A stretch of DNA of 64,000 bases, taken from NCBI GenBank assembly GCA_963580455.1, contig OY756972.1:15391001-15455000 (forward strand), given 5' to 3'. This document shows, piece by piece, positions 9,328 to 46,287 of this stretch. Position numbers and translations under genes: made by a program. Source of the stretch: Euonymus europaeus (lineage: Eukaryota; Streptophyta; Magnoliopsida; Celastrales; Celastraceae). Position 1 is the stretch's first letter, and each line of letters begins with the position of its first letter. The notes under the pieces were generated by a model. That model made no database searches. It saw nothing but the letters and a program-made list of their open reading frames with translations, and was not told where the DNA came from.

Positions 9328-9417
9328 AATGTGAAGGTCGAATCGTCGCTCAGGAATAATTTCTGCTTTAGCAAACAACTCGATTGCTCGTAAGCGGGGT
9401 GACAGAGTCCCACCCAT
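9328..9417 (-). pseudogene. ORF A, first ~30 codons (cut by Athila)
   Basis: From an ATG at 9417 the minus strand reads MGGTLSPRLRAI, the same beginning as the E2 copy at 22576. It stops at the Athila insertion; the rest of this copy is not in the window. Confidence 0.7.
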
Positions 9418-12731: not shown

Positions 12732-13600
12732 AGAGATGAGCTAACTGAGGTGATTCAAAATCAACCCGTGAAGTGGGAGAAGATCACGAAGGATTTTGAA
12801 CAAGGAGTTTTGGCGGTGTAAGAAAAGGGAAAAATTTGGCAGATGGCCTGCCAGTAAAGCTGAGTTGACGGTGAAGAGGTGACTCAAAGAGGAAGAAGAC
12901 GAAGTTGGCCAAAAGATAGAAACAACATTGAAGAAGGGTTTGAATAAAATGTCATGAAAGAGAGAGAGGAGAGGAAAAGTCAGGATCCACAGTTGATTAG
13001 GTGGAAGAGATTACAAAGAAATGCAACTCAAGATGACTGGAGAGACAAAAATCATTAAAGAATAGTTGAATAATTGGCAAAAGAAGGAGACAATGGAGGA
13101 ATATTGTAATGCACGCCTGAATTAGCGATAGTGACGGTGAGTGATTGTGAAATATCTCACTTGGCAACCAAAAGATCCGTAGACAAGAAAATTACTCATT
13201 TAACATAGAAATTGTCCTCACATGGTCAACATTGTAATCTGCGCATATTTGCTCCTCAACTATGCTCATTATTGATGACATCAATTCAAGTCACTTTCAG
13301 CCATATTAAAACCATCAGTCTTAATCTCAAAGTCAATGCACACTATCCTCACCATTGCCACATTATCAATCAACACGTGGCCACATAACAAAAGTAATTA
13401 TTGCACTTTCCACTTGTATGGGAACCACATATTTCTTTCTGAATTTCTTTCGTAATCTGTTTGGTTTCCCTGTCATTTTCTGGGTCATTTGACCAATATT
13501 CTCCTCCCTCACTGTACCTGAGGCTTCATATCTAACATCCTTGTCAGGGTGGCACAAAATATTCTGATGATATCTCGAATGCGTGTCAGAGAAGGATTTA
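12732..13600 (-). other. Region between pol remnant and ORF B in E1
   Basis: No supported gene. 12790-13150 is purine-rich on the plus strand. 13380-13600 reads as a short open stretch on the minus strand that continues from the pol-exon remnant, without a recognisable domain. Confidence 0.4.
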
Positions 13601-13985
13601 ACATTTTTGATTGAGTGCACCCAAAAACTGTTTCATTAGATTCATCTTTTTCTATATCCTCAATTTCAATCTTGGTGAATGGAATGGTAGAACGTGTGAG
13701 ATTTGGAAATTATGGAAAAATGAAAGAGAATGGTTTTGAGAATTTTGAACGAAGAGCTTTATTCATGGTGATAATATAGAAAAGATAAAATGATGCAACA
13801 TGCAACAGCCGTATTAAAACTCCATCAAAGACAATGTAAAGACATGCTCATTGCAAAACCCAATAAGTGGTCATGAGCTAGACCACAAATGGTTGTGCAT
13901 TTAGAGATTACTCCTTGAGGCCATTGATAAGATACTGAAAATTTCCAAACTGATCCAGTTACTAAGCTCAAAAACCAATGTGTGA
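13601..13985 (-). pseudogene. Remnant of pro end, intron and pol exon start (E1)
   Basis: On the minus strand 13985-13915 aligns with the last codons of the young protease frame (young: PGFKLNNWTSVELP). About 13915-13680 aligns with the putative intron (shared ATACGGCTGTTGCATG). 13680-13620 aligns with the start of the pol exon (KIEIED...). It shows that E1 derives from an element with a full gag-pro-pol. Confidence 0.65.
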
Positions 13986-14910
13986 GAAATGATTAGTAGT
14001 AGAGTTGACTTATTTATTTAACAGCAACATGAAGATTAAACGTCAATGCCCCTAATATTATCATTTGCCAATGATTTTAATTTTTATTTTTTTTGTCTTT
14101 TTTTTACCAACTTCATTAATATATGCATGATTGTGAATTTATGTACATCCGATAAACAAAGGAACTATTATACATGTGATGGCAATGGATGACTCATATA
14201 TACATGGATAAAACCTAACTAATATATGCAAAATAATACAGGAAATGTATATACAGACGTGTGAGTGAAAGAGGGGTATATACATGGGCGTAACTTTAAA
14301 TGATGTATGCAAAATAAGTACGTGAAACCTACATGTACAATAAGAATAATATATGTATGAATCAAAACAAAACGTTATATACAGCAAACATAACAACAAA
14401 ACAAAATAATATATACAACAAAATGATATATAACACCATAAAAACATAAGTTTAGAAGTAGTTTCCTATGTCCTATGACTATGGTCGTTGGCTATGGACA
14501 ATCTAGGCTCTCGACTTATCCCCCACCAGTGTCCATTACTGGAATAGGCAGGGTCCCTCTTAACAGAGGAGTGGGTCGAGTGAGGATTTTTCGTGAGCCT
14601 GCACGGGGATTGAAATCCCTCGAAGGTCTCATTTACTTCATCCTCTCCTAAGGGTATTGAGCCCGAGTTGTTGGACTCATGAAAAGGGTATTGTGCACGA
14701 TGTGTGAGGACAATAATAAAAAGCTCACAAAACACAACATTTTTTTAAAAAAAAAATAATAAAAAATATCAATAAAAAAAACTAGAGAAATAAAACACCA
14801 AATATATTTAAAACAAACAAAATCAAATAATGGGATAAGAAAAATTAAATTTAGAAGGCCCAACTCACTAGTTTTTTTTAAGAGATATATACACATTTAA
14901 AAACTAGTCA
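13986..14910 (-). other. Leader of E1
   Basis: Non-coding sequence between the primer-binding site and the pro remnant. It includes a block shared with E2 (CTCGACTTATCCCCCACC... at about 14510-14640 on the plus strand). That block is the site where the young element inserted in E2. Confidence 0.6.
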
Positions 14911-14928
14911 TCCCCAATAGAATCGCCA
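14911..14928 (-). other. Primer-binding site of E1
   Basis: The minus strand reads TGGCGATTCTATTGGGGA two bases after the LTR. The young element and E2 have TGGCGACTTCACTGGGGA. A TGGCGACTC...-type site is characteristic of Tat/Ogre elements, reported to be primed by tRNA-Arg; I did not check the tRNA. Confidence 0.75.
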
Positions 14929-14930
14929 GT

Positions 14931-17026
14931 TGTCGCCACCAATTGTAACAGGTGCAATTGGTCACCGATTAAAAATAATTTGGTCTGCGAAAATCCAAAA
15001 AAAATGGGTAAGTGAGTTTGTTACGTATGGGGAAGGTGTGAGGCACCCCAGAACGTCTGTTTTAAAAAACAGTTGTCAATTTAACTTTTATTATCACATT
15101 AAATGATTAAGAAAATCAAACATGACATTAAACAAAAATATATACATGAGGTATGATAATTATTTACAAGATATAAATGTTATATTGAGAGTCTAATATT
15201 GAAGTTCATGGGACCCTTCCATCCAATAGTCAAGTTTCCATGAAACATTCTTACCTCAAGAATTTTTCTGAGGATGCATCCAATGCATTTCCCGAATTAA
15301 TTTCATCGTTGGTTATGACTTTCGATATAATTTTTATACACACATAAAATATAAAATATGAATATTTAAAAATAAAAATAAGAAATCCTCTCCATCCAAT
15401 GGTTAGGAATTCCTAAAATTTCCTCAAGAATTCGATCGAAAACATCCAATGCCACTCGATTGGTTCCGTCGTCGGATTAACCTCAATATATTACCCACTC
15501 TAAGCATGCAATCTAAACACTCATTTGATATATACATGAACCCTAAGTGTCTACATGCTTCTAACACCCTAAAATCACATATGCAATTTTATTATTTTTG
15601 TTTTACTATTTACATGGTGGTATATGGCCTTGGGGCCCAATTCCCGCTAATCTAAAAATCCTAATTTTCTAAACCCAAAAATCCAAGTGAAACATGAAAA
15701 ATAAAAAAAAAAACCCCAATATTACAAGCCCATTTGTTAACTTTACAAGCCCAACTATCTCAACCCAAAACCCATAAGAAAATGGGTCATAATAATGGTT
15801 GACCCAATCAAAGGCCCAATTTCAGCGGCCCAAACCTCTTATTTGTTTCCCAAAGCCCAGAATCAATCTAATAGTTTTGAACTTATTGGCCCAATGTCTT
15901 CCTTTGGATGACAAGGCATTGAAGCCTTCTCCTAGCTTTCCCAATTCTGAAACATAGAAGAAACGGCGCACCAAAGGCACCAATGGCAGAGGGGGCTCCA
16001 CTCATCTATCAATGCCCACAAAGCTTATGAAATTTTTCATAGTTAACACCTTATGCAAAAGATCCTTGATGAGAAATCTTGGAATTTTGACTTGGTTGAA
16101 TATCTCTCTTAGTAGATACATCTCCTTCCTTTGCAGATCCCTAGGTGTCACTCTCCATCTGTGAATCTCCACCAGCGCTCCCATCCATGGATTATTGATT
16201 AGCTTTCGAATCGGGCCGAGTCATCTTCAACACAAGACAAGAAATCTTGCTGAGATTCAAGAACAGATCGAGTAGATTTCTGTCAATGATCACATATGAT
16301 TCACACAACTTAGAGAGTCGAAAGTTCTCCTAGTATTGATCGGAGATAACATACAAACACAAACAAACGCACAAAACCAAAACAATGGAGAAGATGCACT
16401 TAGCTTTTCAGATGACAGAAGGTGTGGGCCCCCCAAAACAGGTGCAGATACCATGTTTTTGTAGGAGCCAGGAAATGGAAGCTAGCCCAGGAATTCCGGT
16501 CCCAAATCCTTGATTTTCCTATGTTAGGTGAGAAAGGAAGAAAAAATAAAAGTTTCTTGGAGAAAATGAGGGAGTGAGTTAGGGAAAAAAAAGAATTCGG
16601 TGGAGACAAAAGGAGGATTCCAGTAGGTATTGAAGAAAAAGAAGAAAAATCACGTTAGGTATTTACTTCAAAAAATCATGTTCAAAAGTCAAAAAAAATA
16701 TGGTCCAAACGTGTGGCAAAAATAAAAAAAATTAAAATATGTCCAAATATGAGTCCCCAATTATAGTATCCCTAATCCCGTATTTCAATATTCCACTTCT
16801 CCAAAAATCCCTCCATAATCCCTAATTTTCATTCAAGAATCGAAACTTTTACTAGATTGTTCCCAATTAAAGATAATGAAATCATTTAATTGTATTTCTC
16901 TTAATTTTCTTTTTCTCTTCAGAACTAGGCCAAGCCCTTCCCTTAATTGGCATCTTCTTATTTTGAGCTTGAGGGGAAGCATTATGGATTTGTGGATTGG
17001 GGCCTGGACAAAAATAGGGTACTACA
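14931..17026 (-). repeat. 5' LTR of E1
   Basis: The minus strand begins TGTAGTACCCTATTTTTGTCC and ends TTGGTGGCGACA; 2096 bp. Nearly identical over most of its length to the LTR at 53600-55715. Its last ~400 bases are homologous, in inverted orientation, to the end of the plus-strand LTR 17030-20252. Confidence 0.75.
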
Positions 17027-17029
17027 GCT

Positions 17030-20000
17030 TGTTGTACCCCAATTTTGGCTCAAAACTAGCCAAGAAAAATCAAAAAATGCAAATAATAATAAAGCCCAAA
17101 ATATGGGCTGAATTAGAGTCAACCGTGGACCAAAAATTAGGGTTCGAATTTGGTTGATTCGATTAATTGACCCGATAAGCTTAAATGTTTAAATTTTCTG
17201 ACCCAATCGTAACCTAAGATGTTACCCTGATCAGTCATTTCAACCCAAACAAGAAGCCTGACCCATCATATAATTTAAACAAAACCATTTGAACCCAATT
17301 GATGGCCCAAATTAACAGGCCCGTTTGTCCCATTAATTTAGGCCCAAAAACTTTAAAATATGAAGAGATGGTCCGGCCCGGCACATGAGTCTAACCCTAA
17401 TCAAGTAAAAAACAAAAGAAAACAAAAGGAAGAAACGGAAGAAAGAGAAGAGGCCAGGAAGAAAAAATGGGAAGGAAGAAAAAGAGATGCCGGAGGGGAA
17501 GAGGGCGTAGAAATTCAAATGAGGAGCGATTTTTGTTGACAATTAGAGCCGGCTGTTGTTGATTTCGGGGGTTGAGTGATTCAGTGATGTGGGTATAAGA
17601 AGAGGCAGAGAGATCGGATTTCAGGGGGAGTTGTATGGGGTCTTCCGGGGGTGGGGTGGGTTTGGGTTTTCTTTTGTTTCGATTTTCTAGGGATTTGTCT
17701 CGGAGATTGAGGTTTTTTTTTTCATTTCTGAAATTCTTGGAGGAGATTTTGGGTTTTCTTTTGAATTTTCTGGAGATCGGTTTTTTTGACAGGGGGAGGA
17801 GGGGGCTCAGGTCTTCGAGGCTGCCCTTCTCTTGTTTCGGTTTTCTTGGAAAATTTGTGGGTTCCTGTCTTCTTTTACTTCAGTTCTCTGGGAAGTTCTT
17901 TCGGTTTTCTGGCGGGGGGATTCCTTCTTTTCTTCATCTTTCTTTGTTTCGGTTTTCTAGGAAGATTTTTGAGGTTGTTCCTTTCTTCTGGTGATTTCAG
18001 TTTTTCGAGAGGGGGCTGGAGTTCTCATTTTTTATGGATTTCTTCTTCTGGTTTCTGGGGTAACTGGTTTTGATTTTATATCTCCTGGTTCCTCAAATAC
18101 ATAAATCCCAAAAGCTTCATCCCTTTTTCTTACCTGTCTCGATTTTCAGTTCAGGAATTTATGTTTCTTGCATATTTCCTCTTGAAATTTGGTGTTGTAA
18201 TTGTTTTGAGAAAAAGATATATGATAGTTCTTGAATCCTGCTTGAGATGTTGAATTTACTACGTTTTTGTGCTCTGTAACCTCTGATGTGCATGTCTAGC
18301 TGTTATTGATTTTGGTTTTTATTATGATTTTGTAATTAGATTTCGTATGTTTTTGCTGATTTTTGAGATGTGTTGATGCTCCATTGTCGTGATTGTTGAG
18401 GGATAAAGCTTGGTTTAAATCTTTGCATTATGGTTCTTGCTATGCAGTCGTCAAATACTGGATTTTCCTTTGTTGTTTGATGTCCATTTGTTTCAGTGGT
18501 GATATGTTGCAGGATTTGTTTGTGTTTGCAATGCTCTAGATGTATCTATTTTAATGGATGTTCGGATGGCTAGAAAGCCAAGGGAAGAGCAATTTCTTTG
18601 TTGTTTTGAATTTGATATCCATGAATGTTTTTGGTGATTTGAACATGAACCCTTATTTGAGATAGCTATAAAGGATACTGAGAATTTTTAGTCCACCTCT
18701 GGCAGATTCATGTCTTGATTGCCGAGCTCTGTGGGAGATTAAAATAGGCATGGTTGCTTTGTTGGAGATTTTCTTGGATGTGCTGTGGGGCATTTTGGTT
18801 TGGTTTAAGTTATGGATCATGAGGTTAATATGTAACTTGATAAAAATTGGGCTCATTTGTCTACATTGTTTGTTTGGGCTTTTAAATAAAGTACATGGGT
18901 TTAAGCATCAAGTAAAAAAGTTTAATAATGGTTCGGGCCAATGGATTATATTAATTATTTAGGCTTTGATTTTTTTTAAAGGGGCTTAAAATGCTTTGTT
19001 TAATTCATATTTTATTGTATAGTAAATGATCGATTAATTGATCCGATGATGGAACCAAAATGGGAAAGCATTGGATGCTATCCCGAGAGGATTCTTGAGG
19101 AAATGATTTTTGCGGAATCCCTACCATTGGATGGAAAAGGATTTAATGAAGTGCGGAGCCTTCGATATGATAATCTCTTTCGGTAATAAATCATTATTAA
19201 AACGGGAACCGAGTCCCTCTTATGTTTGCTTATTTTTATTATATGTTAATGATGTGTTTTATTTAATATGTGTTTTTCCATGCTATGTGATTATGTGTTT
19301 AAATTGTATGATATGAAGTATTAATATATTTGAATTGGGATTTGCGATAATTCAATATCGTATAGTCCACAAAAAAACTCGGTTCCCAATATTTCAATTT
19401 CATTTTATTTTCATTTTCATTTTATTTTTATTTTTTAATTTTATTTTTGTTTTATTTTTATTTCTATTTCTATTTTATTCTAATTTCATTTTCGTTTTAT
19501 TTTTATTATCATTTTTATTTTTATCTTTTGATTTTATTTTCGTTTTATTTTATTTTTATTTTATTTGTATTTCATTTTTATTTTTATTTTATCTTTTATT
19601 TTTATTTTCGTTTTATTTTTATTTCTATTTCAATTTTATTTTTATTTAATTTTTGTTTTATTTTTATTTAATTTTATTTTTCTTTTTATTTTAATTTTTA
19701 TATTTTATGCTTTTCTAATATTTATATTGTATATTTTCGTGGTGTATAAAAATTATATCGAAAGTCTTTACCTACGATGGAATTGATTTGGGGCATGCAT
19801 CAGATGCACCCTCGGAAAGATTCTTGAGGTGAGAGTGCTTCTAAGAAATTGGACCATTGGATGAAAAAATTATGTGAACCTCAATATTAGACTTTCAATA
19901 TAATTTTTATATCTCCTAAAATTATTCTATTCAATTTTAATATAGTTTTTGTCAAACTTATTTTTATCCTATTTCAATATATTTTTGTATAATTATTTTA

Positions 20001-20252
20001 CTCTATATATGATTCCTGTCATAATTAATTTTTCTTAAAAATCATTTAATGGGATAATGAAAGTTAAATTGGCAACTGTTTTAAAACAGACGTCGTGGGG
20101 TGCCTCACACCTTTCCCATACGTAACAAACTCACTTACCCATTTTTTCTGGATTTTCACAGACCAAATTAATTTTATTGGTGACCAATTGCACCAATTAC
20201 AATTGGTGGTGACTCTCTTTTAAAATTTTATTTCGAAAAACCGGTTGCGACA
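17030..20252 (+). repeat. Tat-type LTR, plus strand, without adjoining element
   Basis: Begins TGTTGTACCCCAATTTTGGC and ends AACCGGTTGCGACA. The end carries the family string GGGGTGCCTCACACCTTTCCC followed by CAATTGGTGGTGACTC. No polypurine tract precedes it and no primer-binding site follows. The five-base flanks (CAGCT, CTCTC) do not match, so a simple solo-LTR insertion is not supported. Confidence 0.65.
19380..19720 (+). repeat. T-rich low-complexity tract (ATTTT)n
   Basis: About 340 bases of ATTTT/ATTTTC units inside the LTR 17030-20252. Three apparent frames of F/Y/I-only composition across it are artefacts. Confidence 0.85.
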
Positions 20253-20819
20253 CTCTCATTTGGGCCGGACCACAGATTGTTTCCAGATCACTGATTGAAA
20301 ACCTGGTGTAAAGCTTGACGATATGCTTGGGATGGTGGAATGGGAGAAGTTATGGTGATGTTGATGTTGTGGTTCAAGTGGTGGCTGGAAAAGTGAGGAA
20401 TTGAGCTATGATGAAGAAGGGTTTTGGTGGCAAGGAATTCTTGTGGCTAGAAGATGATCCGATTCCCCCCCTAAAATTGGAGGAGAAGTGTTGTTCTTGT
20501 AGAAGTGAGGAATTGGATGCCAGGAAGCATCCTTGTCTAATGGGTGAGTGCCTAATTTCTTCAATTAGGTGAGGACCACATGAAAAACGGGACTAATTGG
20601 TGGAGAAATTGGAGTTAGTGGAAAAAAGGAGCACCGATTGGATTTTGTCAAGAAAAGAAGATAGCCAGCACTAAAGTATCAAAAAATGATTCACGTGGGA
20701 GTAATATGCCACCAAATAAAAACACAAAAGAATTAATACCAAAAAATAAAAATGTAGACTAAAAATGAGAGAAGAAAAAAAAGAGTGTGAGAAGGCTCGG
20801 ACGAAATCAGGTTACTACA
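20253..20819 (-). repeat. Partial 3' LTR of E2
   Basis: The minus strand begins TGTAGTAACCTGATTTCGTCC right after the polypurine tract. It is cut after ~567 bp at the end of the LTR 17030-20252. Its distal part resembles the LTR at 52606 (TATCGTCAAGCTTT...CCAGGTTTT). Confidence 0.7.
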
Positions 20820-20832
20820 GCTGCCCCCTTTT
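20820..20832 (-). other. Polypurine tract of E2
   Basis: The minus strand reads AAAAGGGGGCAGC immediately before the LTR TG; the young element has AAGGGGGGCAGC in the same place. Confidence 0.75.
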
Positions 20833-20899
20833 GCGTGACTTTTACATAGTAATGGCGCGCAAAAGAGTAGTAAACCTATTTTTGGTCCAATGTCACGAA

Positions 20900-21420
20900 A
20901 ATGCATGAGATCACTACAGTCATTTTTGGATTGGCTGACGATGGAAAAGATTTTATTTTTTTATTTTTTTTTGAAAGATGCTCGGGATTACTAGAGCCAT
21001 TCCCGGCTTGGCTAATCATTGGAGAAGATTTTTTTGAAAAATGCACGGGATCACTAGGGCCATTCCCGGCTTGTGCAGTCATTGAAAATGATTTTTTTTG
21101 AAAAATGCTCGGGATCACTAGAGTCATTCCCGGCTTGGCAGACATGTTGAAAGAGTTTTTTTTTTTTGAAAGATGCTCGGGATCACTAGAGACATTCCCG
21201 GCTTGGCGAATCATTGGAAATGATTTTTTTTTTTTGAAAAATGCTCGGGATCACTAGAGCCATTCCCGGCTTGGCTAATCATTGGAAATGATTTTTGAAA
21301 AAAATGCTCGGTATCACTAGGGCCATTCCAGGCTTGGCCAGTCATTCAAAATGAATTTATTTATTTTTGAAGAATGCTCGGGATCACTAGAGCCATTCCC
21401 GGCTTGGCAGACATGTTGAA
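20900..21420 (-). repeat. Tail tandem array of E2 (~66-bp units)
   Basis: Seven good copies and one diverged copy of the motif GCCAAGCCGGGAATG...TAGTGATCCCGAGC on the minus strand, at about 20980, 21045, 21107, 21175, 21243, 21306 and 21376. They are separated by A-rich spacers ending in ...AATGATT. Apparent reading frames across it are repeat artefacts. Confidence 0.9.
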
Positions 21421-21583
21421 AGAGTTTTTTTTTCTTTTTTTTGCATTTTTTAAATTAATATTATTTTGAATTATTGTATTTACACAAAGAAATTTACATG
21501 GGGACACTGTAGTTATCCCTGGGCTTGTCTGTGATATGGGCTGGACTTGGGTAAAAGATACATGAACTGACACTGTAGAGTTC

Positions 21584-22576
21584 TTAATTGGGCCTCTCCA
21601 TATTCGCGGCCACATTCAACAGTTGCTCCCACCTTTTTCGCGTGGCCTCCGACTGATGTTCATTAGTTGGTGTTTTCTGAATACGGTTAGGTGGTGATGG
21701 TGGTGGTTTAAAAGCAAATCGAGATGTTTCCCCTAGTAATGCAACTCGTGGCCGTGATGCTTTTTGCCTCTTGGCAGCAGTGGTCATTTGGTTAATGCCT
21801 TTCTGCCAGTTGTTTTTCTGCATAATGCTTACTGGATAAAATGGACAGATTTGGTTTATAGGAGGACGAATGCCTTTGCTCAAAACCAGTCGGGTAACGA
21901 GTCGTGGAAAATATAATTTTCCAACCTTCGTTGGTCTATTCTCCACGAAACTCTGTGTCTTTAGAATTGTGGTCATAAAGAATTCTCCAATATCGAACCA
22001 TACTCCCTGATACATATAGTATAGGGCATGAAGAATCCTACCCCGTCTCTAGTGGTGGTGGTCGATGGGGCAAAGATTGTGCCGGAGAGCGTCGTCCAGC
22101 AACCACATCTTTGGTAGCAAATATGAGCGGCGTGTAGCGCTTATTTTCTTATCGCTCGGTCCTCGACACATGTTGTCAATTATCTCCTTCTTAGAAACAG
22201 TTACCAGTGCTTCGAATCCGATAGCTACATCATAAGAAGGGGGATACCCTAAACACTTGCATATGTCTGCTGTGGTGAACTGGAGTTTTATACCAATTAC
22301 TTCCACCTGGTAAATCGGATGTGGTCCGGTTCTCGTATGCGGTGTTAACATTTCAAGAGTCTCGTAGAAATCACGAACTATACGAGGGTACACTGATAAG
22401 TCACCTGTAGGATCTGGGTTAACAAAAAATAACACAGAGTGATCCTGGAGGTAATACATAGCCCAGCGAGCGTTGGCATCTCTAAGAATGTGAAGGTCGA
22501 ATCGTCGCTCATGAATAATTTCTGCTTTAGCAAACAACGTGATTGCTCGTAAGCGGGGTGACAGAGTCCCACCCAT
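21584..22576 (-). pseudogene. ORF A of E2: Transposase_32-like, one in-frame stop
   Basis: From the ATG at 22576 (MGGTLSPRLRAI) to TAA at 21584, about 330 codons, with a single TAG at 22049-22051. That TAG stands where E6 has a glutamine codon (HHHQRRGK). It keeps the features of the intact young copy: RWAMYYLQDHSVLFFVNPDP, VRDFYETLE, QVEVIGIKLQFTTADICKCL, WLLDDALRHNLCPI, ILHALYYMYQGVWFDIGEF and YFPRLVTRLVLSKGIRPP. The frame is open on both sides of the stop, so decay is slight. Its function is unknown; see the young copy at 42360. Confidence 0.85.
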
Positions 22577-24702
22577 TAAATGAGATGAAAGATGGGTGAG
22601 GAATTTGAACGAAACGAAGATGAGCAATAATGGAGAACTAGGTGAGACAAACGAAAATTATCGAAAGTGAGTAATCGTGTCGATAACGAAAAGAACAAAA
22701 GATGACGTTACGAGATCAGAGTGAAAACGGTGATCGACTATCGGTGAAAGTGAAAGAAATTTTGAAAGAGATGAAATGATGCAGATGCTAGATATGGTAA
22801 AGATACGCGACTCAGATAAGAGGAAGAAGAAAAATTTGACCCTAAGAGAGAAAACGTTAAAGAGAAATCGTAAGATTTCAAAAGACGTTGAAAACTCTAG
22901 ATCACGTATGAGACGGTGGAAACGTGTCACTTAGTAGAAAAGCGATGAAATCAATCAGAAGAGACAAAAAATTGGCTAGAAAGGAAGACAGAGAAGAAAT
23001 GTCGGGATACGTGCCGGAGCTGGTGATAGAGACACGATAGTGATGGGAAGAGACAAATGGCCGAAAGAAAATGAAAAAAATAAAGAAATTCGTATGCCTA
23101 AGCTATGACAAGGATGGGAAAGAGACATGATGGAGATGGGGAGGAAAAACGATAGAGACAGGAAAAAAGAATATGGCCAAAAGATACAAAATATTTTAAA
23201 AACACATGCCATGAAAACGACAAAAATGAAGAAAGTTGTGTATGCCTGAATTGTGACAGTGATGGGGAAGAGGCATGATAGAGATGGTGAAGACGTGCGA
23301 CTCACAGCGACGAATAATTTTTTTTTAATAGATGAGACAAAACTTTTGAACGAAGGTCATGGAAGAGAAATGAGAAGAAATCTTTGAACACAGGCCTGAG
23401 CCATTTCAGCCTCTTGTCAAGGCAATGATTGAGAGTGACGGCTTTGTAATTGAAACATGCAATCAACGCGAGCATACACTTGATTTGTGGGCCACTCCCA
23501 ACTAGATTTGTGCGAAATAATAGTGCATGGGATCCGTGATCCACTCCCCACTTGGGCAAGACATAAAATATTTGAAGAAAGAGATGCATACCTGATTCAT
23601 GAAGATTGACTGAATTTGTACTGTTTGAACAAACCTGTCAAATGATAAGCAACATGCGACGATGATGCATGCAATGACATATATTGCTCGATCATGAATG
23701 TCTCACTTGGAATGAATGCAATCCCCTCAAGTTTTTTCATTTTTTCCTCTCTCCCTTTTTTTTGTTTTTTTCATTGTTTTTGACCAATTTTCTTCAAAAC
23801 TCATATGTGCCCACATTTCTTAATAAAAACTTTTTCCATTTTTATGTTTCGAATTATTCCTCTCCTAATAATACATTTCTCGACCACGGGGTTTTTTTCC
23901 ATCCCTTTTTCAGTGTAGGACACCAACATCTATCAATGTCCTGACAAAAAGTAATATTCAAATGCACTTATCACGCTTTCTGTCGAAACTTTGCCAATGA
24001 TGATTTTAACAATATGACTATGCATGTCAAATTGAAAACTTCTTGGAAGATGAATGAGATGTGAAAATGGATGAGCAAAGTCAAAGAAATGAACACTTCG
24101 ATAAAATTTAATCGAAAATGATGAGTGACGATAGAAAGCTTATTTTGGAGGGGAAGAGGTGATGTCAAAGAAATGAGAAATAGACTGAGCTTTCCCAAGA
24201 TAAAAATTGTGACAATCCAAAGATTACACCAAAACTGCCCCAGTTTTGGTGTGCCCCCAATTAACAATGATTAAATCCAATTTGCATAAGATTATATCTG
24301 AACCCTTCATTTTTGGCAACAAAATTCTTCTTTTGATGTAATGATTGCACCAAAAACTGTCCCAGTTTTGGTGCGTGTCTAGGAAGCCAATTATGCACCT
24401 TCACCCATATCACCACAAATCAAATTGATCACCAATCATGAAACTGTCCAAAGTCCAACAAGTCCATGTCTGAACTGTTCTTCTGAACTTCCAATCTGAA
24501 TTGAATGCATCGTTTCTCCTCTCTGTTTTTCTTATTTCGTTTTCCCTTTTCTTCATTGTTGTTGTTTTTTTTTTTGCTTGTGTTTTTGTCCCTAATTTTT
24601 GCCTAGAGCGCCCTTTCAGGTTTTCACTCTAGCGGGAATTTTTTTGTCATAATTATGCAAATGTCTCTATTGAAGACAGTAACTTAATTTATTCATCGGA
24701 AA
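22577..24702 (-). other. Between ORF B and ORF A in E2: purine repeats, hairpins, post-pol motif
   Basis: 22640-23330 is the same purine-rich degenerate repeat block as in E1. 24226-24252 is a perfect hairpin, ACACCAAAACTG-CCC-CAGTTTTGGTGT. 24347-24374 is a second hairpin of the same kind. 24591-24640 is the post-pol motif. No gene is supported. Confidence 0.75.
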
Positions 24703-25860
24703 CTAACTTTCCAAAAAAGATAAACAACACAACGTCTGCAATGTTCCACAATTACTGAAATGATGGAAATAAAAATTCTCTGACTGAAATCCCGGGTCTT
24801 CATGATTTTCAGAAGGATAACAATTCTGTTGTTGGGCCTGTGTAGTAGAAAACTGCATGGTATGCCTTCCAAAATCACTGGATGAATGATAAGGCAGGTG
24901 AGTCATGACTCCATGGTTGCCCGCAATATATGCCATTAATAGATCAATAGTTTTAGACAAGTGATCCAGATGTGCCACAATTTGCGTTAACCTTTCAGCT
25001 ACGTCAGTAGTTCCAGATGATTGAGAATGATGAACGGTATGGGATTCAGCCACAGTAGGAGTCTCTACAATATCATCATCCCTATATCTTCCGATCATTC
25101 TGCGATCAATAGCACATTTTGGATACTGCACCTCCTCATGCGGTGCCCAAAGAACTCCAGCTTTCATGCACAATGTGAAGATCAGAGAGGGCAAACAAAG
25201 CCGTATGGTTGTTGTATTGCGATAACTGTGCACAATGGAATTGTGCAAAACTTTGCCAATATCAATTGATTTTCCATGTAGAATACAATAAAGCAAAATT
25301 GCTCTATTTTTGGGAATATCTGTTGAATGCGTGCTTGGCATGAGCTTCGCCCAAATAAATCGGATCGAAGTCTTGCTATTTTTTGTCATAGAAGATGTGG
25401 CAAATGAGACTCCCACCCCATTAAATTTCTTCCAGGCAGCTCCTGGCTTACACAACGTATGAATCACTTCATCCATAATAGTATCAGACTCCAACAAGGC
25501 CGAGAAATCCTCATTGACGATGTCTGAAAGATTATAGACAGCATTGATGGTTTTTCTATCAAATGGGACCATCATACCCCGAACATATACATGTTCATAC
25601 CCTACAACTGCATTTGCATAAAATTCCCTTACCACTGGGACAACTGCGGGTTTTGGTTGTGCAACGAAATCCCCCCAACCTCGCTCAGCAATAATTTTTG
25701 CAATTGCAGGCTCTGCTGTTAAAAAAGTTTGCAAACCTCTCTTTGGAATAATTTTTCTCCCCCTTATTGATTCTCGATATTTCTTAATCGCTTCCTGACA
25801 GATAAAGCGATTTAGATCAATCATCTGAGAGGATTGCTCGAATGGTCTTTTGGTAGCCAT
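24703..25860 (-). CDS. ORF B: Transposase_32-like protein, intact, 385 aa
   Basis: An uninterrupted 385-aa frame from ATG 25860 (MATKRPFEQSSQMIDLNRF) to 24703. The middle resembles the plant putative transposon protein domain Transposase_32 (Pfam PF20167, recalled, not searched): IAERGWGDFV at about 58, VREFYANAVVGYEHVYVRGM at about 80-100, a W-x-K-LMPSTHSTDIP block, then NRAILLYCILHGKSIDIGKV and CLPSLIFTLCMKAGVLW. The C-terminal third is polar, with a DVAERLTQI..LDHLSKTIDLL helix and a Q-rich end. The domain has no demonstrated enzymatic activity. The gene sits where pol is in the young element, after the intron/pol-exon remnant and before the post-pol hairpins. An equivalent broken copy is in E1. 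It may have been captured by the retroelement; the direction of transfer is unknown. Confidence 0.75.
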   Translation of the reverse strand: MATKRPFEQSSQMIDLNRFICQEAIKKYRESIRGRKIIPKRGLQTFLTAEPAIAKIIAERGWGDFVAQPKPAVVPVVREFYANAVVGYEHVYVRGMMVPFDRKTINAVYNLSDIVNEDFSALLESDTIMDEVIHTLCKPGAAWKKFNGVGVSFATSSMTKNSKTSIRFIWAKLMPSTHSTDIPKNRAILLYCILHGKSIDIGKVLHNSIVHSYRNTTTIRLCLPSLIFTLCMKAGVLWAPHEEVQYPKCAIDRRMIGRYRDDDIVETPTVAESHTVHHSQSSGTTDVAERLTQIVAHLDHLSKTIDLLMAYIAGNHGVMTHLPYHSSSDFGRHTMQFSTTQAQQQNCYPSENHEDPGFQSENFYFHHFSNCGTLQTLCCLSFLES

Positions 25861-26689
25861 AGAGATGAGCTAACTGAGTTAATTCAAAATCAACCCGTGA
25901 AGTGGGAGAAGATCACGAAGGATTTTGAACAAGAAGTTTTGGCGGTGTAAGAAAAGGGAAAAATTTGGCAGATGGCCTGCCAGTAAAGCTGAGTTGACGG
26001 TGAAGAGGTGACTCAAAGAGGAAGAAGACGAAGTTGGCCAAAAGATAAAAACAACATTGAAGAAGGGTTTGAATAAAATGTCATGAAAGAGAGAGAGGAG
26101 AGGAAAAGTCAGAATCCACAGTTGAGTAGGTGGAAGAGATTACAAAGAAATGCAACTCAAGATGGCTGGAGAGACAAAAATCATTAAAGAAGAGTTGAAT
26201 AATTGGCAAAAGAAGGAGACAATGGAGGAATATTGTAATGCACGCCAAAAGATCCGTAGACAAGAAAATCACTCATTTAACATAGAAATTGTCCTCACAT
26301 GGTCAACATTGTAATCTGCGCATATTTGCTCCTCCACTATGCTCATTATTGATGACATCAATTCAAGTCACTTTTAGCCATATTAAAACCATCAATCTTA
26401 ATCTCAAAGTCAATGCACACTATCCTCACCATTGCCACCATTATCAATCAACACGTGGCCACATAACAAAAGTAATTATTGCACTCTCCACTTGTATGGG
26501 ATCCACATATTTCTTTCTGAATTTCTTTCGTAATCTGTTTGGTTTCCCTGTCATTTTCTAGGTCATTTGACCAATATTCTCCTCCCTCACTGTACCTGAG
26601 GCTTCATATCTAACATCCTTGTCAGGGTGGCACAAAATCTTCTGATGATATCTCGAATCTATTCCCCGTGTCAGAGAAGGATTTAACAT
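25861..26689 (-). other. Upstream of ORF B in E2
   Basis: No gene recognised. 25920-26240 is purine-rich on the plus strand. The part next to the pol-exon remnant stays open on the minus strand (...HPDKDVRYEASGTVREENIG) without a known domain. Confidence 0.4.
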
Positions 26690-27065
26690 TTTTGATTGAG
26701 TGCACCCAAAAACTGTTTCATTAGGTTCATCTTTTTCTTTATCGTCAATTTCAATCTTGGTGAATGGAATGGTAGAACGTGTGAGATTTGGAAATTGTGG
26801 AAAAATGAAAAAGAATGGTTTTGAGAATTTTGAACGAAGAGCTTTATTCATGGTGATAATATAGAAAAGATAAAATGATGCAACATGCAACAGCCGTATT
26901 AAAACTCCATCAAAGACAATGTAAAGACACGCTCATTGCAAAACCCAATAAGTGGTCATGAGCTAGACCACAAATGGTTGTGCATTTAGAGATTACTCCT
27001 TGAGGCCATTGATAAGATACTGAAAATTTCCAAACTGATCCAGTTACTAAGCTCAAAAACCAATG
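26690..27065 (-). pseudogene. Remnant of pro end, intron and pol exon start (E2)
   Basis: The minus strand from 27065 matches the end of the young protease frame. 26995 to about 26758 matches the young intron (GAGTAATC donor-like start; ATACGGCTGTTGCATG; final CATTCCATTCACCAAG). 26757 onward matches the pol exon (KIEIDDKEKDEPNE against IEIDDNEEDESNE in the young copy). Confidence 0.75.
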
Positions 27066-27668
27066 TGTGAGAAATGATTAGTAGTAGAGTTGACTTATTT
27101 ATTTAACAACAACATGAAGATTAAACGTCAATGCCCCTAATATTATCATTTGACAATGATTTTTATTTTTATTTTTTTTTGTCTTTTTTTTTGTCTTTTT
27201 TTTTGCCAACTTCATTAATATATGCATGATTGTGAATTTATGTACATCCGATAAACAAAGGAACTATTATATATGTGATAGCAATGGATGACTCATATAT
27301 ACATGGATAAAACCTAACTAATATATGCAAAATAATACAGGAAATGTATATACAGACATGTGTGAGTGAAAGAGGGGTATATACATGGGCATAACTTTAA
27401 ATGATGTATGCAAGATAAGTACGTGAAACCTTTATGTACAATCAAAACAATATATGTACGAATCAAAACAAAACATTATATACAGCAAACACAACAATGT
27501 ATGTACAAGAAACAAAATAATATATACAACTCCCAAAAGACGTAAGGTTAGAAGTAATTTCCTTTGTCCTATGACTATGGTCATTGGCTATGGACAATCT
27601 AGGCTCTCGACTTATCCCCCACCAGTGTCCATTACTGGAATAGCCAGGGTCCCTCTAAACAGAGGAGT
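27066..27668 (-). other. Leader of E2, right part
   Basis: Non-coding, collinear with the E1 leader at about 13986-14570. It ends at the target site of the young element. Confidence 0.6.
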
Positions 27669-27673
27669 GGGTC
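27669..27673. other. Target-site duplication, left copy (GGGTC)
   Basis: GGGTC before the 5' LTR TG; the partner is at 46283-46287. Confidence 0.95.
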
Positions 27674-30400
27674 TGTTATACCCCATTTTTGTCCAAATTC
27701 TTTTGCTATAAAAATACAAAACAGAAATATGATAATAAATAAAATACAAAAATAAACAAATATACAAAAATAAACTCAAAAAATAGAAAGCCCAACCCCT
27801 CCCCCATTAAGCCCAAAAATAGAGTTTACAAAACCAAAAGCCCAAATAAACAGCCCATAACCCGGTCCATCTTCAAGAAGCTTCCAACAAATTGAAAGCA
27901 AAGGATGGGGGAAGCATGGTTTGTGGTTGGATGGGGAGGTGGTTGCCGTTGGAGTTAAGGGAGAGCAGGACTTCAATGAAAGGCAGAGATGGCAGGAGAT
28001 GGTGGAGATTGATGAGGGGATGGGCAGAGGAAGTTGAGCCAGAGGTTGGGATGCTACAAAAAGGGGGGGGGGAGAAGACCAGAGGGAACCAGAGAGAGAA
28101 ACGGAGAAACAAAGGGGAAAAGGGAGGAGATCGATCCGAGAGAGAGGGGACCCAGAATACCAAATCACTACCCGACTATACTTCGTCAACCTCTCTTCCC
28201 TCAAATCCTGATCGGACTGCCTTGACAACTCCGATCTCCTCTTCACGCAAGTCCTCAACTGGACCTTCTCACTCCATCCATCATCACCGGCGCTCATACC
28301 ATTATTGACGGCATCCACCCGAAATTCCTTCTGCCCCCACATCCACATCTGTTTTTTTGGTTCGATTTCTTCGAGATTTGAAAGGTAATTTTCTACCCCT
28401 CACTCTGTAACCCAAATCTCTATATACTTTGTTGAATCTTTGTTTCTCAAAACTGGATTGAGGTTGCTTCAGCTGGGTTCAGGCTTGCTCTTGTTGTTCC
28501 GTTATTGTTTTGTTTCTTGGTTATTTCTTGTGCTTCTCTGTCTACTTTGCTTGCTTGTATTGTTCCTGGTTTTACATGTCGAGCTCGGGAGGGCGGTCGC
28601 ACCACCGGATGTGGAGGAGTGGTTACCGTTGGCCATGTACTAGAAGGGAGAAGACACTTCTGGTTTGAGGTATTGGGCCGGTAGGGCTGGTAAGACTTTG
28701 GGCCAAGGTTGTTCTTTTATTGGGCCGGTTACAGGATTGATAAAATTGGGCTAGGCTTGTATGATGAATTGATAAATTGGGCCACGTTGGTACATGCTTT
28801 GTAATATTTGAAATGGGGCCGGGCTTTTATTGTTTCTTTAGCCAAGAATGATTGTTATATTGGGCCGGTTACAGATTCATGGGGCTTTGGGCCTATTTTT
28901 GTTGATTGAATTATCGGGCCAAGTCCTTGCATGTTTTAAGGTATTGATGACGAGCCAGTAATTGGGATTGGGTTTACATGCATGTGGGTTTATATGTATA
29001 GATCATTGGGCTTTAACTTATTTCTTGTGTATATTTGGTTCTTGTTTGTATATTGGGCTTTGGGTTTATAAATCATGCATGGATTTGTTGAGGTAGAAAT
29101 TAGTAAACCCAAAGCCATGTAAATTGTAACTCATGTAAATAAATGGATGTAAATAATAAAATGCATACATGTATATTTAGGATGTTAGAAGCATATGGAT
29201 TTATTGAAATATGACTGCTTAGTATGCATGTTTAGGCTTTGTGCAAATTGTGAATATTTAGATTGCATACTTAGAATCTTGTTTCATTGTTATGCCATAA
29301 AAAAGACGCAACGCGATAACAATTAAATCTAAGCCGTTGCACCTTAAAAAAATGACACCAAGACTAATATGAGAAACTCGTATTCTGTTTAAATACCAAA
29401 AGAACCTTCAAGATATTGGGGTTTTTGTCGGCATTTATTCAGAATACTTGATTTTCGTGGAACCAAAAAGCAAATTTATTTTTAGGGATTAGAAGAATCT
29501 ATTTAAGGACTCAAGAGGGGGTTTAAAGATATTTGACCCATCTAATGAGCCTTAAATGTATTCTTTCTTTTCTCATAAAGAATATGATTGTGAGTATGGC
29601 TTAAATTGACCGAGTGGGTGTCTGTGGATCGATTTGATGCATCAATCGAATTCCAAAAATTCACAACCTTTTCAAAATTATCAAAACCACTTCAAGTGGA
29701 CTTTTCATCAATCTCCAAATTATTTCAGCCAAGCCGGGAATGGCTGTAGTGATCCCGTGCACCTCTTTTAAATTATCAAAACCACTTCAAGTGGGATTTT
29801 TCATCATTCTCCAAAGTATTTTTCAGCCAAGCCGGGAATGGCTGTAGTGATCCCGTGCACCTCTTTTAAATTATCAAAACCACTTCAAGTGGATTTTTCA
29901 TCATTCTCCAAAATATTTTCAGCCAAGCCGGGAATGGCTGTAGTGATCCCGTGCACCTCTTTTAAATTATCAAAACCACTTCAAGTGGATTTTTCATCAT
30001 TTTCTAAAAATATTTTCAGCCAAGCCGGGAATGGCTGTAGTGATCCCGTGCACCCTTTTAAAATCATCAAAAACCACTTCCAGTGGATTTTTCATCCAAG
30101 CATCAAATTGCCACAATATTAATGGGGTCAAACCCACTCAATTGAAACATGGACTTTCTAGTATATATAGAAATTCATTAAAGCAATTGGGACATACAAA
30201 CTCTTTTCAAAACAAAATTCGAGCCAAATAAGAAAACATTTTAAGGCAACCGTTTTTTCGGGAGTTGTGGGGTGCCTAACACCTTCCCCATGCTCAATAG
30301 ACCCCCTTACCCATTTCTTTTTCGTAGACCATATTAGGTGTCCAATTGCACCTTAAAAATCAATTGGTGGCGACTTCATTTTTTCAAGCCGGTTGCTTCA
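27674..30400 (+). repeat. 5' LTR of the young element
   Basis: 2727 bp, TGTTATACCCCATTTTTGTCC...AAGCCGGTTGCTTCA. It contains a possible TATA box (CTATATAC, about 28420) and four ~97-bp tandem units at 29690-30110. Near the end it has the family strings GGGGTGCCTAACACCTTCCCC and CAATTGGTGGCGACTTC. Short frames inside it have no support as genes. Confidence 0.95.
29680..30110 (+). repeat. ~97-bp tandem units in the 5' LTR
   Basis: Units starting at 29727, 29825, 29921 and 30018. Each holds AGCCAAGCCGGGAATGGC, then TAGTGATCCCGTGCAC, then the near-palindrome CCACTTCAAGTGG. The 3' LTR has the same array at 45562-45992. Confidence 0.9.
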
Positions 30401-30402
30401 GC

Positions 30403-30420
30403 TGGCGACTTCACTGGGGA
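30403..30420 (+). other. Primer-binding site of the young element
   Basis: TGGCGACTTCACTGGGGA, two bases after the LTR and identical to that of E2. This is the Tat/Ogre type, thought to be tRNA-Arg primed. Confidence 0.85.
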
Positions 30421-31209
30421 TAGTATGGTTATTATACCAAAGGGGTCGAGCCTTTTTCTTTTTGTTTTCTTATCTTGGCTAATTTGTTTGTTATATAATT
30501 TTTATGTTTCTTTTAAATTGAATGATTTAATACGTTTGTCCATGATTGTAGATATTTGACAGGTTCTGTGGTTACAAGTATAGATACGGTATGATTGCTC
30601 CACACACACATCACTATTCACATGCACACAAACGACCCATAAAAACCCGGGTCTTACTAGTGATTAGTGAGGGTTGATCCTTGCTTTTGATGGACTTTGT
30701 CCTCACGTAAGCAAGGAAAAACATCCTCCTGGATTGACGTCCCTTCAAGATATTGGGGGATGGGCTCCACTTCCAGATATGGGGTGTGTGCTAACCTAAT
30801 CCAGTAACCTCTCGCGTATTCGCGATGTAGTTAGATATGCTGCCTATACGCACATCAGTTCATCCTTAGATCCGGTTCGAGACCTTCAGAAGTATATAAG
30901 AATTTGGCCCCGTTTAAAGACAATGGAGTGATTCATCTATCCTTATCTCCATTTATTTTTGTTTTGTTTACATATTTTACGTTCACCTAGAATATCCACA
31001 CATAAGCATACAGTGTTTAGATACATGTTCATATATTATTTTATGCAGTTATTGTGTACATATTGATTTAGTTTGTATTCATATATTTGTCAGCATACGT
31101 GTTATTTGTTTGTACATATATTTTGTACCATACTTCTTGACATTATGTACATACTCATTTTTTCATACGCCCATACATTCACTAGGCACACTCTTTGCAA
31201 TTCGACAAG
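30421..31209 (+). other. Leader of the young element
   Basis: About 790 bases without a gene. It contains a compound hairpin at 30679-30716 that recurs after pol at 40862-40899. Confidence 0.7.
30679..30716 (+). promoter_or_regulatory. Compound hairpin in the leader (copy 1)
   Basis: Outer stem CCTTGCTT / AAGCAAGG and inner stem GGAC-TTT-GTCC. The surrounding 65 bases (30651-30716) are repeated in direct orientation after pol. A role in packaging, dimerisation or translation is inference only. Confidence 0.5.
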
Positions 31210-33291
31210 ATGATGTTTGCAGAAGCAGTGATAGGGACGAGCCATATGGAGCGAGACCATTCATGGGAGGTTAAGGAAGCATTGGAAGGTTTGCAAATAG
31301 AGCTTGGGGACAGTTTGAAGGATGATTTGCCTCTTGGAGTTGTTCGAAAAACGCAATTTCAAGAGCAAGCGCCACCAGGTCTGGCACAGTTTTGGGAGAA
31401 ACAAAGCATTGAAGCACGTAAAAGCTTCGGGAAGATCTATGGGCATATCGGGCATTTGCTGACCATCAGGGTACCTATAACCCTTCTCCAAGCAGCTACA
31501 CATTATTGGGACCCAGCATACCGATGTTACACTTTTAACTCAACAGATATGTCCCCCTTGGTGGAAGAATATGGTCAACTTTTGGGGTATGACCCACATG
31601 TTAACAAAGTCTACAACCCAGGAGAAGTTACAGACGGCAGGAAGATCGTTCACAAGCTGTTGAAGATAGATCAGACTAAGACTCCAGGAAAAGATAAAGG
31701 CACTATCTGGGTGTTTCCTATAGACAAATTGATGAGTTTTGCTCAAGGAAAGTTTGAGACTCCAGAGGGACAGATGGCTTTTGCTCTAGCTATATATGGA
31801 GCGGTATTGTTTCCGTGTGCAGGAGGCTATGTGGAGAAAAATGTGATTAAGCTGGTTCACCTTGTCAAGTATGGCACCAATCCTATACCATCAATCATAT
31901 GTGAGACAATTCGGTCTCTCAATCATTGCCGCATTCGAGGAGAGGGCAGTTTTAGGGGATGCTCACAATTACTCAGTCTCTGGTTGGTGAGTCACTTGAG
32001 ATATCCAAAAAAGATTGGGGCTCCAATTGTTATGTTTGAAGATCATACTCGTCCGCTCAGAGATCCGTTTCATAATTTCAAAGCAGCAAAGATACAGTCC
32101 AAGGTGCCGGGGGTTGATGTGTGGAGACGCTTCTTGGAAGAATTGAAGCCTGAGCTTACTTTTGATAGAGCGGTATGGTACAAGCCAAAGGGTTTACTCT
32201 ACAAGTGTGTGGAGTATAATTGGCTACCTTTGATAGGACCTTGGGGCGGCACTAGTCAAGCACCGGCAATGTTCCTCCGTCAAGAAGGGTGCAATCTATG
32301 CGTGCCTGTTACACATGGTCTGATGGAGTTCGACTTCTCACATGGAGATGAGAAAGGGAAGGGGTTATCTCGGCAGGCGGTAGATGCATGGAAAAGAACT
32401 CATGTGATGATGCGGGGAAAACTCACTATGGACACCAAAGGAAAAGATCGATATGTTCATTGGCTCCAAGAAAGGAAAAAGACGATAACACAGCCTAGCA
32501 GTCTCCTTACTCAAAAGAAGATGTCTTATGGGAAGGAAAGTCAGACTCTGGAGGTTTTGTCAGATAGGGATAAAGAAGGAGTTGATGCCCCAATCGAAAT
32601 AGCAGCATTTCAGAATTCGTGGAAGCAAAGGTTCCAAAAAAGCGAAAGTGAATGTAGAGGGCTGAAAAGGAAGATTTTAGAAGAAAGAGAAATTGAGAAA
32701 AAGAAATTCGATGCACTAGAGAGGCAATTCATGAAGTTGCAAGAAGAGAAAGATAAAATGAGGATGAGCCAAGTAGAAGAGGAAAGGACGAGGATGCAAG
32801 TAGAGTCTCACGAACTACGCGGGCAAATTCGAGAGCTAAATGTAGAGCTCGTCTCATGGAAAGAAGATGTTTATCAGCTACAACTGCAAATGCATCGAGA
32901 CAGGAGGAAAAAAAAGGAGGCTGAAGCTGAGAGAGAGAGATCGATTGTGCAAATAAATGAGGTATGGGAAAAAAATCAGCAGCAGATGGATGAGATTGAA
33001 GTTTTGAATAGGAACAATAATGATTTACATGCGATGCTAGAAGAAAGCCAGCTAGAGCAAAAAAATACGAGATTTAGAGTGCGGCTAATGATGAGCCGCT
33101 TGATGTCTTTGTCTGAATGGGCTAGGAGCTATGAAGGGCGTTTGAGGAAGTTGGACTCGAATCCCGCACTGGAGATGACAGGGCTAACAGGGATTTGGGC
33201 GCTCTTGAGAGATTTGAAGGGGGACCTACAAGAGCTTCAGAGGAGATTGAATGTAGTTCTGGATGAGGTCCCAGTTGTCCAAGTAGAATAA
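31210..33291 (+). CDS. ORF1: DUF7745-like protein with C-terminal coiled coil
   Basis: 693 aa from the ATG at 31210; an in-frame TTG lies 15 bases upstream but an ATG is the likelier start. The N-terminal two thirds resembles the plant DUF7745 family (recalled, not searched): LAQFWEKQS near 60, YRCYTFNSTDMSPLVEEYGQ, FALAIYGAVLFP, SQLLSLWLVSHL, YNWLPLIGPWGG and CVPVTHGLMEFDF. Residues ~470-640 form a long charged coiled coil. Ogre-type elements carry an extra ORF of unknown function before gag, and this gene is in that position. It is followed by gag after ~180 bases. The frame is intact. Role unknown; assembly or RNA binding are only guesses. Confidence 0.85.
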   Translation: MMFAEAVIGTSHMERDHSWEVKEALEGLQIELGDSLKDDLPLGVVRKTQFQEQAPPGLAQFWEKQSIEARKSFGKIYGHIGHLLTIRVPITLLQAATHYWDPAYRCYTFNSTDMSPLVEEYGQLLGYDPHVNKVYNPGEVTDGRKIVHKLLKIDQTKTPGKDKGTIWVFPIDKLMSFAQGKFETPEGQMAFALAIYGAVLFPCAGGYVEKNVIKLVHLVKYGTNPIPSIICETIRSLNHCRIRGEGSFRGCSQLLSLWLVSHLRYPKKIGAPIVMFEDHTRPLRDPFHNFKAAKIQSKVPGVDVWRRFLEELKPELTFDRAVWYKPKGLLYKCVEYNWLPLIGPWGGTSQAPAMFLRQEGCNLCVPVTHGLMEFDFSHGDEKGKGLSRQAVDAWKRTHVMMRGKLTMDTKGKDRYVHWLQERKKTITQPSSLLTQKKMSYGKESQTLEVLSDRDKEGVDAPIEIAAFQNSWKQRFQKSESECRGLKRKILEEREIEKKKFDALERQFMKLQEEKDKMRMSQVEEERTRMQVESHELRGQIRELNVELVSWKEDVYQLQLQMHRDRRKKKEAEAERERSIVQINEVWEKNQQQMDEIEVLNRNNNDLHAMLEESQLEQKNTRFRVRLMMSRLMSLSEWARSYEGRLRKLDSNPALEMTGLTGIWALLRDLKGDLQELQRRLNVVLDEVPVVQVE

Positions 33292-33468
33292 AGTTACTTC
33301 TTGTATGCAATATTTTGAATAAAAGTAATAAAAGAAGAATGCTATGCTTTCAATCGTCTTGTCAAATTGCAAAGATATTTAGGAAGCACATCAATTCACA
33401 AATCATGCATCATTACAAATAATAAAATAATAATAAAATGTAAATAACTAAAATTAGACTTTTGAAAG

Positions 33469-46282: not shown

Positions 46283-46287
46283 GGGTC
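46283..46287. other. Target-site duplication, right copy (GGGTC)
   Basis: GGGTC directly after the LTR end TTGCTTCA, followed by GAGTGAGGATTTTTCG, which continues the E2 leader. Confidence 0.95.

Follow-up and report, generated by a model that had tools for sequence, protein, structure and literature searches.

Non-autonomous long terminal repeat (LTR) retrotransposons are usually viewed as gene-poor parasites of replication machinery. Among them, LARD, TR-GAG and Dasheng (the partner of RIRE2) have kept the LTR, primer-binding site (PBS) and polypurine tract (PPT) but lost the enzymes; they are presumed to be mobilized by a relative, and are non-coding or carry gag only. The 64,000-nucleotide stretch of Euonymus europaeus DNA analyzed here (C16:15391001-15455000 in the 443-Mb host assembly; "the window") is a nest of Ty3/gypsy elements, one of which, the minus-strand Ogre/Tat-derived element E2, differs from these systems in that two other open reading frames (ORFs), ORF A and ORF B, remain, one of them with signs of selection. 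The Medicago families Mtr78 (LARD) and Mtr80 (env-class) have no or poorly detected reverse transcriptase (RT) and a long ORF weakly similar to a putative Arabidopsis transposon protein (PMC2533021). They resemble the E2 type as LTR families with a long ORF and no clear RT, and differ in that the accessible text of that report describes them without a selection test, a position in the pol slot, or a comparison with a helper (PMC2533021). A PF20167 (Transposase_32) ORF is described in a sunflower Athila element (PMC11728184), the only occurrence of this domain in the text of the literature surveyed. An extra ORF after pol (aORF) is reported in Tat/Retand elements (PMC7264820, PMC11963269), and Table 1 of the second report contains Retand clusters without GAG, AP, RH or INT. 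As far as these texts extend, the Athila ORF and the aORFs accompany pol domains, whereas ORF B replaces pol. Ogre elements are reported to have a spacer averaging 274 bp, which in the Ogre of pea and Medicago is an intron that is spliced out (Neumann et al. 2019, PMC6317226). A young element nested in E2 resembles them in having an ORF upstream of gag, gag, pro, a putative 264-nt intron, and RT, RNase H (RH), a second RNase H (aRH) and integrase (INT). E2-type elements differ in lacking gag, RT and INT and in carrying ORF B as an extra; no RT was found in them by which a clade could be assigned, and we call them Ogre/Tat-derived because they share colinear remnants with the young element. Among the titles and abstracts surveyed, in which subscription literature was thinly covered, we did not find this design for non-autonomous Tat/Ogre families with accessory genes.

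Our best explanation as a whole is that E2 probably derives from a large LTR family of Ogre/Tat descent that is dispersed through the genome and depends on helpers, and that E2 is a disrupted copy. Pol-less copies of this family have LTRs, PBS, PPT, splice donor, a hairpin, ORF B in the slot of RT, RNase H and integrase, and ORF A after it, and some of them are recent insertions flanked by target-site duplications (TSDs). E2 itself is incomplete: it is split by the young element, has lost the 5' LTR, and retains no more than a stump of the 3' LTR, so that a preliminary description in which the LTR was kept was not confirmed. In reading order it runs from 46657 to 46288, and then from 27673 to 20819-20253. 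The PBS is identical to that of the young element, as had been proposed, and lies outside the interval 20253-27673 in which it had been placed, because the young element was inserted into E2. The features of E2, with the young element, are as follows.

46639-46657, minus strand: PBS, identical to that of the young element
46288-46638, minus strand: 5' part of the leader, separated from the remaining leader by the young element
27674-46282, plus strand: young gag-pol Ogre-type element inserted within E2, LTRs 99.96% alike
27079-27673, minus strand: remainder of the leader, common to E1 and E3 (sister copies described below)
26597-27078, minus strand: remnant block with the last codons of pro, the intron and the first codons of pol, by alignment to the young element
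26756-26996, minus strand: putative intron; the donor is GT and the AG acceptor is displaced (CCAAG, not AACAG G)
25861-26260, minus strand: pyrimidine-rich stretch ahead of ORF B, 64-80% C+T, weakly resembling the stretch before ORF A
24703-25860, minus strand: ORF B, 385 amino acids (aa) plus stop, PF20167 (Transposase_32)
24591-24637, minus strand: post-pol hairpin, by alignment to the young element
23639-24337, minus strand: post-pol region common to the young element (pieces 24337-23830 and 23720-23639)
21608-22576, minus strand: ORF A, a PF20167 relative, 59% aa identity to young ORF A, one in-frame stop
20960-21437, minus strand: tail of tandem repeats, from self-comparison of the window
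20820-20836, minus strand: PPT
20253-20819, minus strand: 3' LTR stump, stopping at the plus-strand LTR end at 20252

Five colinear blocks tie E2 to the young element: the pro end, intron and pol start (27078-26597 with 36922-37424, 69%), the sequence directly past the pol stop (24656-24589 with 40717-40784, 88%), a post-pol block (24337-23830 with 41011-41547, 64%), ORF A (22562-21598 with 42374-43333, 68.5%), and the PPT with the LTR start (20969-20799 with 43407-43575, 73%). They bear out the earlier statement that the last codons of pro, the intron region, the first codons of pol and the post-pol hairpin were kept. The leader had been listed with them; its alignment gave no clear similarity to the young leader. 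Between the pol-start block, which extends to 26597, and the hairpin (24637-24591) lie 0.7 kb of other sequence and ORF B. In tblastn searches with the young ORFs, E1 and E2 yielded only codons 2-49 of pol and, as first described, nothing of gag, RT or integrase. From 46659 onward, where the 5' LTR of E2 would lie, there was no match to any LTR compared, and a search of 20200-46700 against Rfam gave no match at the gathering score.

The young element is flanked by the TSD GGGTC (27669-27673 and 46283-46287) and encodes ORF1 (DUF7745), gag, pro, RT-RH-aRH-INT and ORF A. Its pol domains occur in the order RVT_1, RT_RNaseH, RVT_3, H2C2, rve, with the aRH that marks Ogre/Tat elements between RH and INT. 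Without positions 37002-37265 (264 nt), a single open frame would run across pro and pol, suggesting an intron. Its ORF A matches PF20167 at 51.7 bits (cut-off 45).

The same design recurs throughout the genome. A search with ORF B returned 107 matches, and 106 of 578 candidates were scored, so that ORF B has at least 106 places, 58 of them with 68-100% aa identity (subfamily B1) and 48 with 58-64% (subfamily B2). We surveyed the best 30 ORF B loci, E2 included, with 1.5-kb flanks. The intron/pol-start block was present in 29 of them (L013 being without it) and the post-pol block in all 30; the hairpin aligned over at least 63 nt in 25, over only 22 nt in three, and in two not at all. A young-type RT or integrase end was found within these flanks in none of the 30. 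Two complete pol-less copies have an LTR pair, PBS, PPT and TSD, without gag or pol, as expected of non-autonomous elements. The copy L031+L033 (C14) has 2.6-kb LTRs that are 99.73% alike, a TSD of ATTTT, a PBS, and an open ORF B frame of 377 aa from stop to stop, and retains a scrap of ORF1 just ahead of position 5121 in L031. The copy L051+L052 (C10, B1) has 2.06-kb LTRs that are 99.27% alike and a TSD of GTTTG; it contains matches to ORF B and ORF A, no gag, and only a 24-codon scrap of pol. In L032, which lies in a tandem array, the frames of ORF B and ORF A (339 aa) are both open, unlike the non-coding interior of a LARD, and no gag match occurs in E1, E2, L031 or L032, which separates them from TR-GAG. 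A further locus, L034, was rejected as a complete copy; it is without ORF A or 3' LTR and lies in satellite DNA.

To survey the 5' ends, 1.2 kb was read at the expected place of the PBS or integrase end in 20 further loci (nine B1 and 11 B2), and integrase was found in none of the 20. All nine B1 loci pass from the LTR end directly to the leader with no pol between, the PBS being recognized in eight. The 11 B2 loci are a non-random sample, since loci with an integrase end had been left out; the stretch read contains LTR end, PBS and leader in eight of them and nothing but LTR sequence in three. The proposal that the element multiplied in its pol-less form is thus upheld by the block in 29 of 30 loci, by the two TSD-flanked complete copies, and by nine of nine further B1 loci.

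To quantify the evolutionary pressures on ORF B, we compared nonsynonymous and synonymous substitution rates (dN and dS). Median dN/dS was 0.41 within B1 (435 pairs), 0.35 within B2 (65 pairs, from 12 copies that include the composite loci L040 and L046) and 0.37 between B1 and B2 (360 pairs, range 0.31-0.47) at a dS of about 0.67, and the bootstrap interval for one B1-B2 pair was 0.28-0.50. Variants shared among B1 copies (83 nonsynonymous to 61 synonymous, 1.36) were less often nonsynonymous than singletons (177 to 76, 2.33; Fisher p 0.016), which were near neutral (expectation 2.51 with transitions weighted 4). These codon comparisons show purifying selection on ORF B, and it seems that selection has preserved a protein gene in the gag- and pol-free copies over the long term separating the subfamilies.

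The gag-pol relatives of these copies were sought through ORF A and pol. Of 902 candidates in the genome search with ORF A, 119 were scored as matches, and we divided these into classes by their identity and by where the match begins. An ORF B is located 2.8-5.0 kb upstream in 56 of 64 E-like ORF A matches, in none of 32 young-type matches and in one of 23 matches of a third class; in the last, pol is upstream in at least ten of the 23 (L049 included), and we call these family H. Among the 39 pol genes scored of 10,723 candidates, 22 had a scored ORF A downstream; a scored ORF B was absent from the 9 kb downstream of all 39. H pol is 76-80% identical in aa to young pol, which places the family with Ogre/Tat, and the splice sites of its intron between pro and pol were aligned through L048 alone. 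ORF A identity is 87% between H and B2 and 81% between B1 and B2, the LTR end of L050 (H) is 94% alike to that of L031, and the gag-pol locus L048 is 85% alike to L031 across LTR end, PBS and leader. Judged by these ORF A and LTR-end sequences, the nearest gag-pol relative is family H and not the young element, of which E2 had been called the partner; PBS type is the sole link to the latter. A tree of the intron block joins H to the young element (local support 0.99) and sets the pol-less copies apart, whereas a tree of ORF A joins H to B2 (1.00). Recombination is the best explanation of this conflict.

Based on these similarities, we propose that the pol-less RNA would be packaged, copied and integrated by the Gag-Pol of related Ogre families with shared ends. 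The shared ends suggest family H as the helper of B2, and the PBS suggests that the young family may perhaps serve some B1 copies. The ORF B protein could be made from a spliced or internal mRNA and may provide an accessory function that favors its own RNA. Modules were probably exchanged with gag-pol elements by recombination: in B2, an H-like LTR end and ORF A surround a pol-less core, and in some B2 loci H gag-pol is joined on upstream of this core. A more specific history is conceivable, although we hold it only tentatively: a long-lived, satellite-like LTR lineage would have been free of gag and pol since before the B1/B2 split, keeping a selected ORF B, while its core passed between the LTR families of helpers by recombination and was once joined to helper gag-pol.

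Several observations weigh against a helper-dependent, pol-less family with a selected gene. ORF B is not confined to pol-less elements, because in B2 it is preceded by H-type pol at seven loci or more, so that the earlier claim that ORF B takes the place of pol is correct for the pol-less design and incomplete for the loci as a whole. The 1.5-kb flanks are blind to pol farther upstream of ORF B, only 13 B1 copies in all were read to their 5' end (E1, E2, L034, L051 and the nine further loci), and the recent copy L031/L033 has an ORF A reduced to 130 codons. With the composites L040 and L046 among the B2 copies, selection on B2 ORF B could partly stem from gag-pol-bearing elements, and the test of shared variants against singletons was not significant in B2 (p 0.65). 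Within B1, dN/dS was scattered by pair (0.11-3.19), and the pair E1 and E2 was near neutral (0.74). The pol-start control of about 44 codons had a dN/dS of 0.46 between B1 and B2; therefore, the control does not separate dead and live frames, and in E2 itself the pol-start frame is open over 286 nt. For ORF A, dN/dS was 0.76-0.89 among E2, E3 and E4 and 1.46-3.75 in pairs with the short E5. Finally, a structure model of ORF B had no match in PDB or BFVD at E <= 0.001.

The alternative that best survives, although we consider it unlikely, is that ORF B is native to an element composed of H plus core, with gag-pol and with ORF B after pol, and that pol-less copies arose by repeated internal deletions with ORF B as a passenger. 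Such a parent would resemble L053, L054 and L055, the three loci read, in which the H post-pol region (L049 8522-8579) joins the core at L031 5121, one junction shared on three contigs, and the ORF1 scrap before this point in L031 is what would remain after a deletion in the composite. An H-type integrase end lies upstream of ORF B at seven B2 loci, at a distance of 2.3-2.4 kb in six of them (40 of 124 candidates scored). In the 14 B2-type loci read, there was no RT and one integrase end, in the composite L046/L048, whose junction differs from that of the three loci and was found once in the genome search; L040, another of the 14, has pol beyond the stretch first read (L055). Yet the composite was seen in none of the 13 B1 copies read to the 5' end, and deletion within B2 fails to account for the identical order in B1. 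The core of the composite also contributes a second leader, pro end, intron and pol start of its own, and thus reads as a pol-less element joined on rather than as a parent.

It is improbable that ORF B is neutral cargo whose open frames reflect young copies, as the near-neutral E1-E2 pair and B1 singletons and the pol-start control value might suggest. A dN/dS of 0.37 at a dS of 0.67 between subfamilies, and the scarcer nonsynonymous changes among shared B1 variants, argue otherwise. Stops interrupt the pol-start frame in all 28 of 28 other copies, whereas ORF B is free of in-frame stops as far as codon 370 in 19 of 30 B1 and 12 of 14 B2-type copies (frameshifts not counted), and a public record contains a 354-aa relative that is 64% identical. 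That E1 and E2, 94-96% identical over their common parts, are one locus duplicated with its surroundings, the possibility by which the preliminary description was to stand or fall, is very improbable, because complete copies have LTR pairs 99.3% and 99.7% alike with their own 5-bp TSDs, many relatives are dispersed over the at least 106 ORF B places, homology breaks off at 9328 and, at the other end, on the PBS side, without matching flanks in the window, and the E1 LTR and E2 LTR stump do not match each other.

The sister copies in the window, all on the minus strand, are arranged as follows.

9328-14936, minus strand: E1, second copy of this layout, lacking its 3' end and with a disrupted ORF B
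14937-17026, minus strand: E1 5' LTR
47579-48680, minus strand: E3 5' fragment with PBS, leader, pro end and intron start, without gag
48731-51196, minus strand: E3 3' fragment with post-pol region, ORF A and tail

E1 14573-14930 aligns to 46283-46658, the E2 leader and PBS, and the two copies share one design, as had been noted. E1 is truncated at 9328, and the window contains neither an ORF A nor a tail or 3' LTR belonging to it, so that the attribution of these parts to both copies was correct for E2 only, with one stop in its ORF A. Likewise, ORF B was described as intact and is open in E2, from the ATG at 25860 to 24706, and in E1 is broken by two stops and two 1-base insertions. In E3, the same leader is fused to the pro end, with more of pro retained than in E1 and E2; gag is missing in all three alike, because the E3 leader joins the pro end as well. 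A 3.2-kb plus-strand LTR-like stretch (17030-20252), beginning TGTTGTACCCC and ending GGTTGCGACA, sits between the E1 5' LTR and the E2 3' LTR stump, without a matching target duplication. At 55715-55716, an E1-type LTR that is not preceded by a PPT begins within another copy's tail repeats, and is therefore probably a nested insertion, cut off at 53594.

The ORF B protein of E2 matches PF20167 at 136.4 bits (gathering cut-off 45). A structure model with a pLDDT of 76 predicts a mixed helix-strand domain, a long helix at residues 290-318 and a low-confidence tail; a first model, with a pLDDT of 49, was not used. The highest 19-residue hydropathy (1.72 at residue 221) is marginal for a membrane span and falls inside the PF20167 domain, and KKYR was the sole basic cluster found. 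ORF B had no relative in IMG/VR, and a protein search with ORF A gave none at E <= 0.001. An integrase remnant ahead of ORF B was considered and rejected, since 5 of 200 shuffles equalled its score, as was an origin of ORF B as a recent copy of ORF A (blastp E 0.079). The stretches before ORF B and ORF A are weakly alike: the likeness exceeds all 300 shuffles for the ORF A of E2 and of the young element, but not for that of E3 (36 of 300 as high). The likeliest role of ORF B may be an accessory function favoring its own RNA, an assignment that we regard as doubtful. The retention of ORF B would imply that accessory proteins of Tat/Ogre elements are useful to an element unable to replicate itself, and pol-less elements isolate such a gene from gag-pol, making its function testable.

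For ORF A, dN/dS against L032 was 0.32 in E2 and 0.28 in E3, values that are not certain for the pol-less phase because ORF A has been exchanged with gag-pol elements. The higher identity of E2 and E3 in ORF A (about 93%) than in the flank (about 80%) was dropped as a sign of selection, the pair having a dN/dS of 0.78-0.82.

In 41 of the 43 aligned rows that have letters there, the young element and L048 included, the putative intron starts with a GT donor; in the pol-less elements the donor would be GGA/GTAATC. All aligned core introns have the acceptor CAAG, compared with CAGG in the young element and L048, except L019, which has a change of its own. Ten of the B1 copies fetched have a readable PBS. 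It is of the young type in L071 and L073 and, with a single change, in L068; in the remaining seven it is of a second type, which carries a single change in two of these. Each replication cycle rebuilds the PBS from tRNA, and its type therefore tells the last primer used, not common descent. Two types among near relatives of one subfamily (46639-46657, L071, L073, L068) indicate a switch of tRNA primer.

The hairpin that follows the pol stop or ORF B (40735-40845, plus strand, and 24591-24637, minus strand, in the window; 7956-8186 in L031) is present in two copies in the young element and about three in the B2 locus L031. It is 88% alike between the young element and E2, while the adjacent blocks are 64-69% alike, and is possibly a cis signal. 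A tandem array of one pol-less element at G000:C11:15850234-15872586 contains three ORF B copies at a spacing of 10,599 bp with matching ORF A copies, and in L034 (B1) arrayed repeats of about 155 bp lie on both sides of the copy, at 1-1640 and beyond about 8345.

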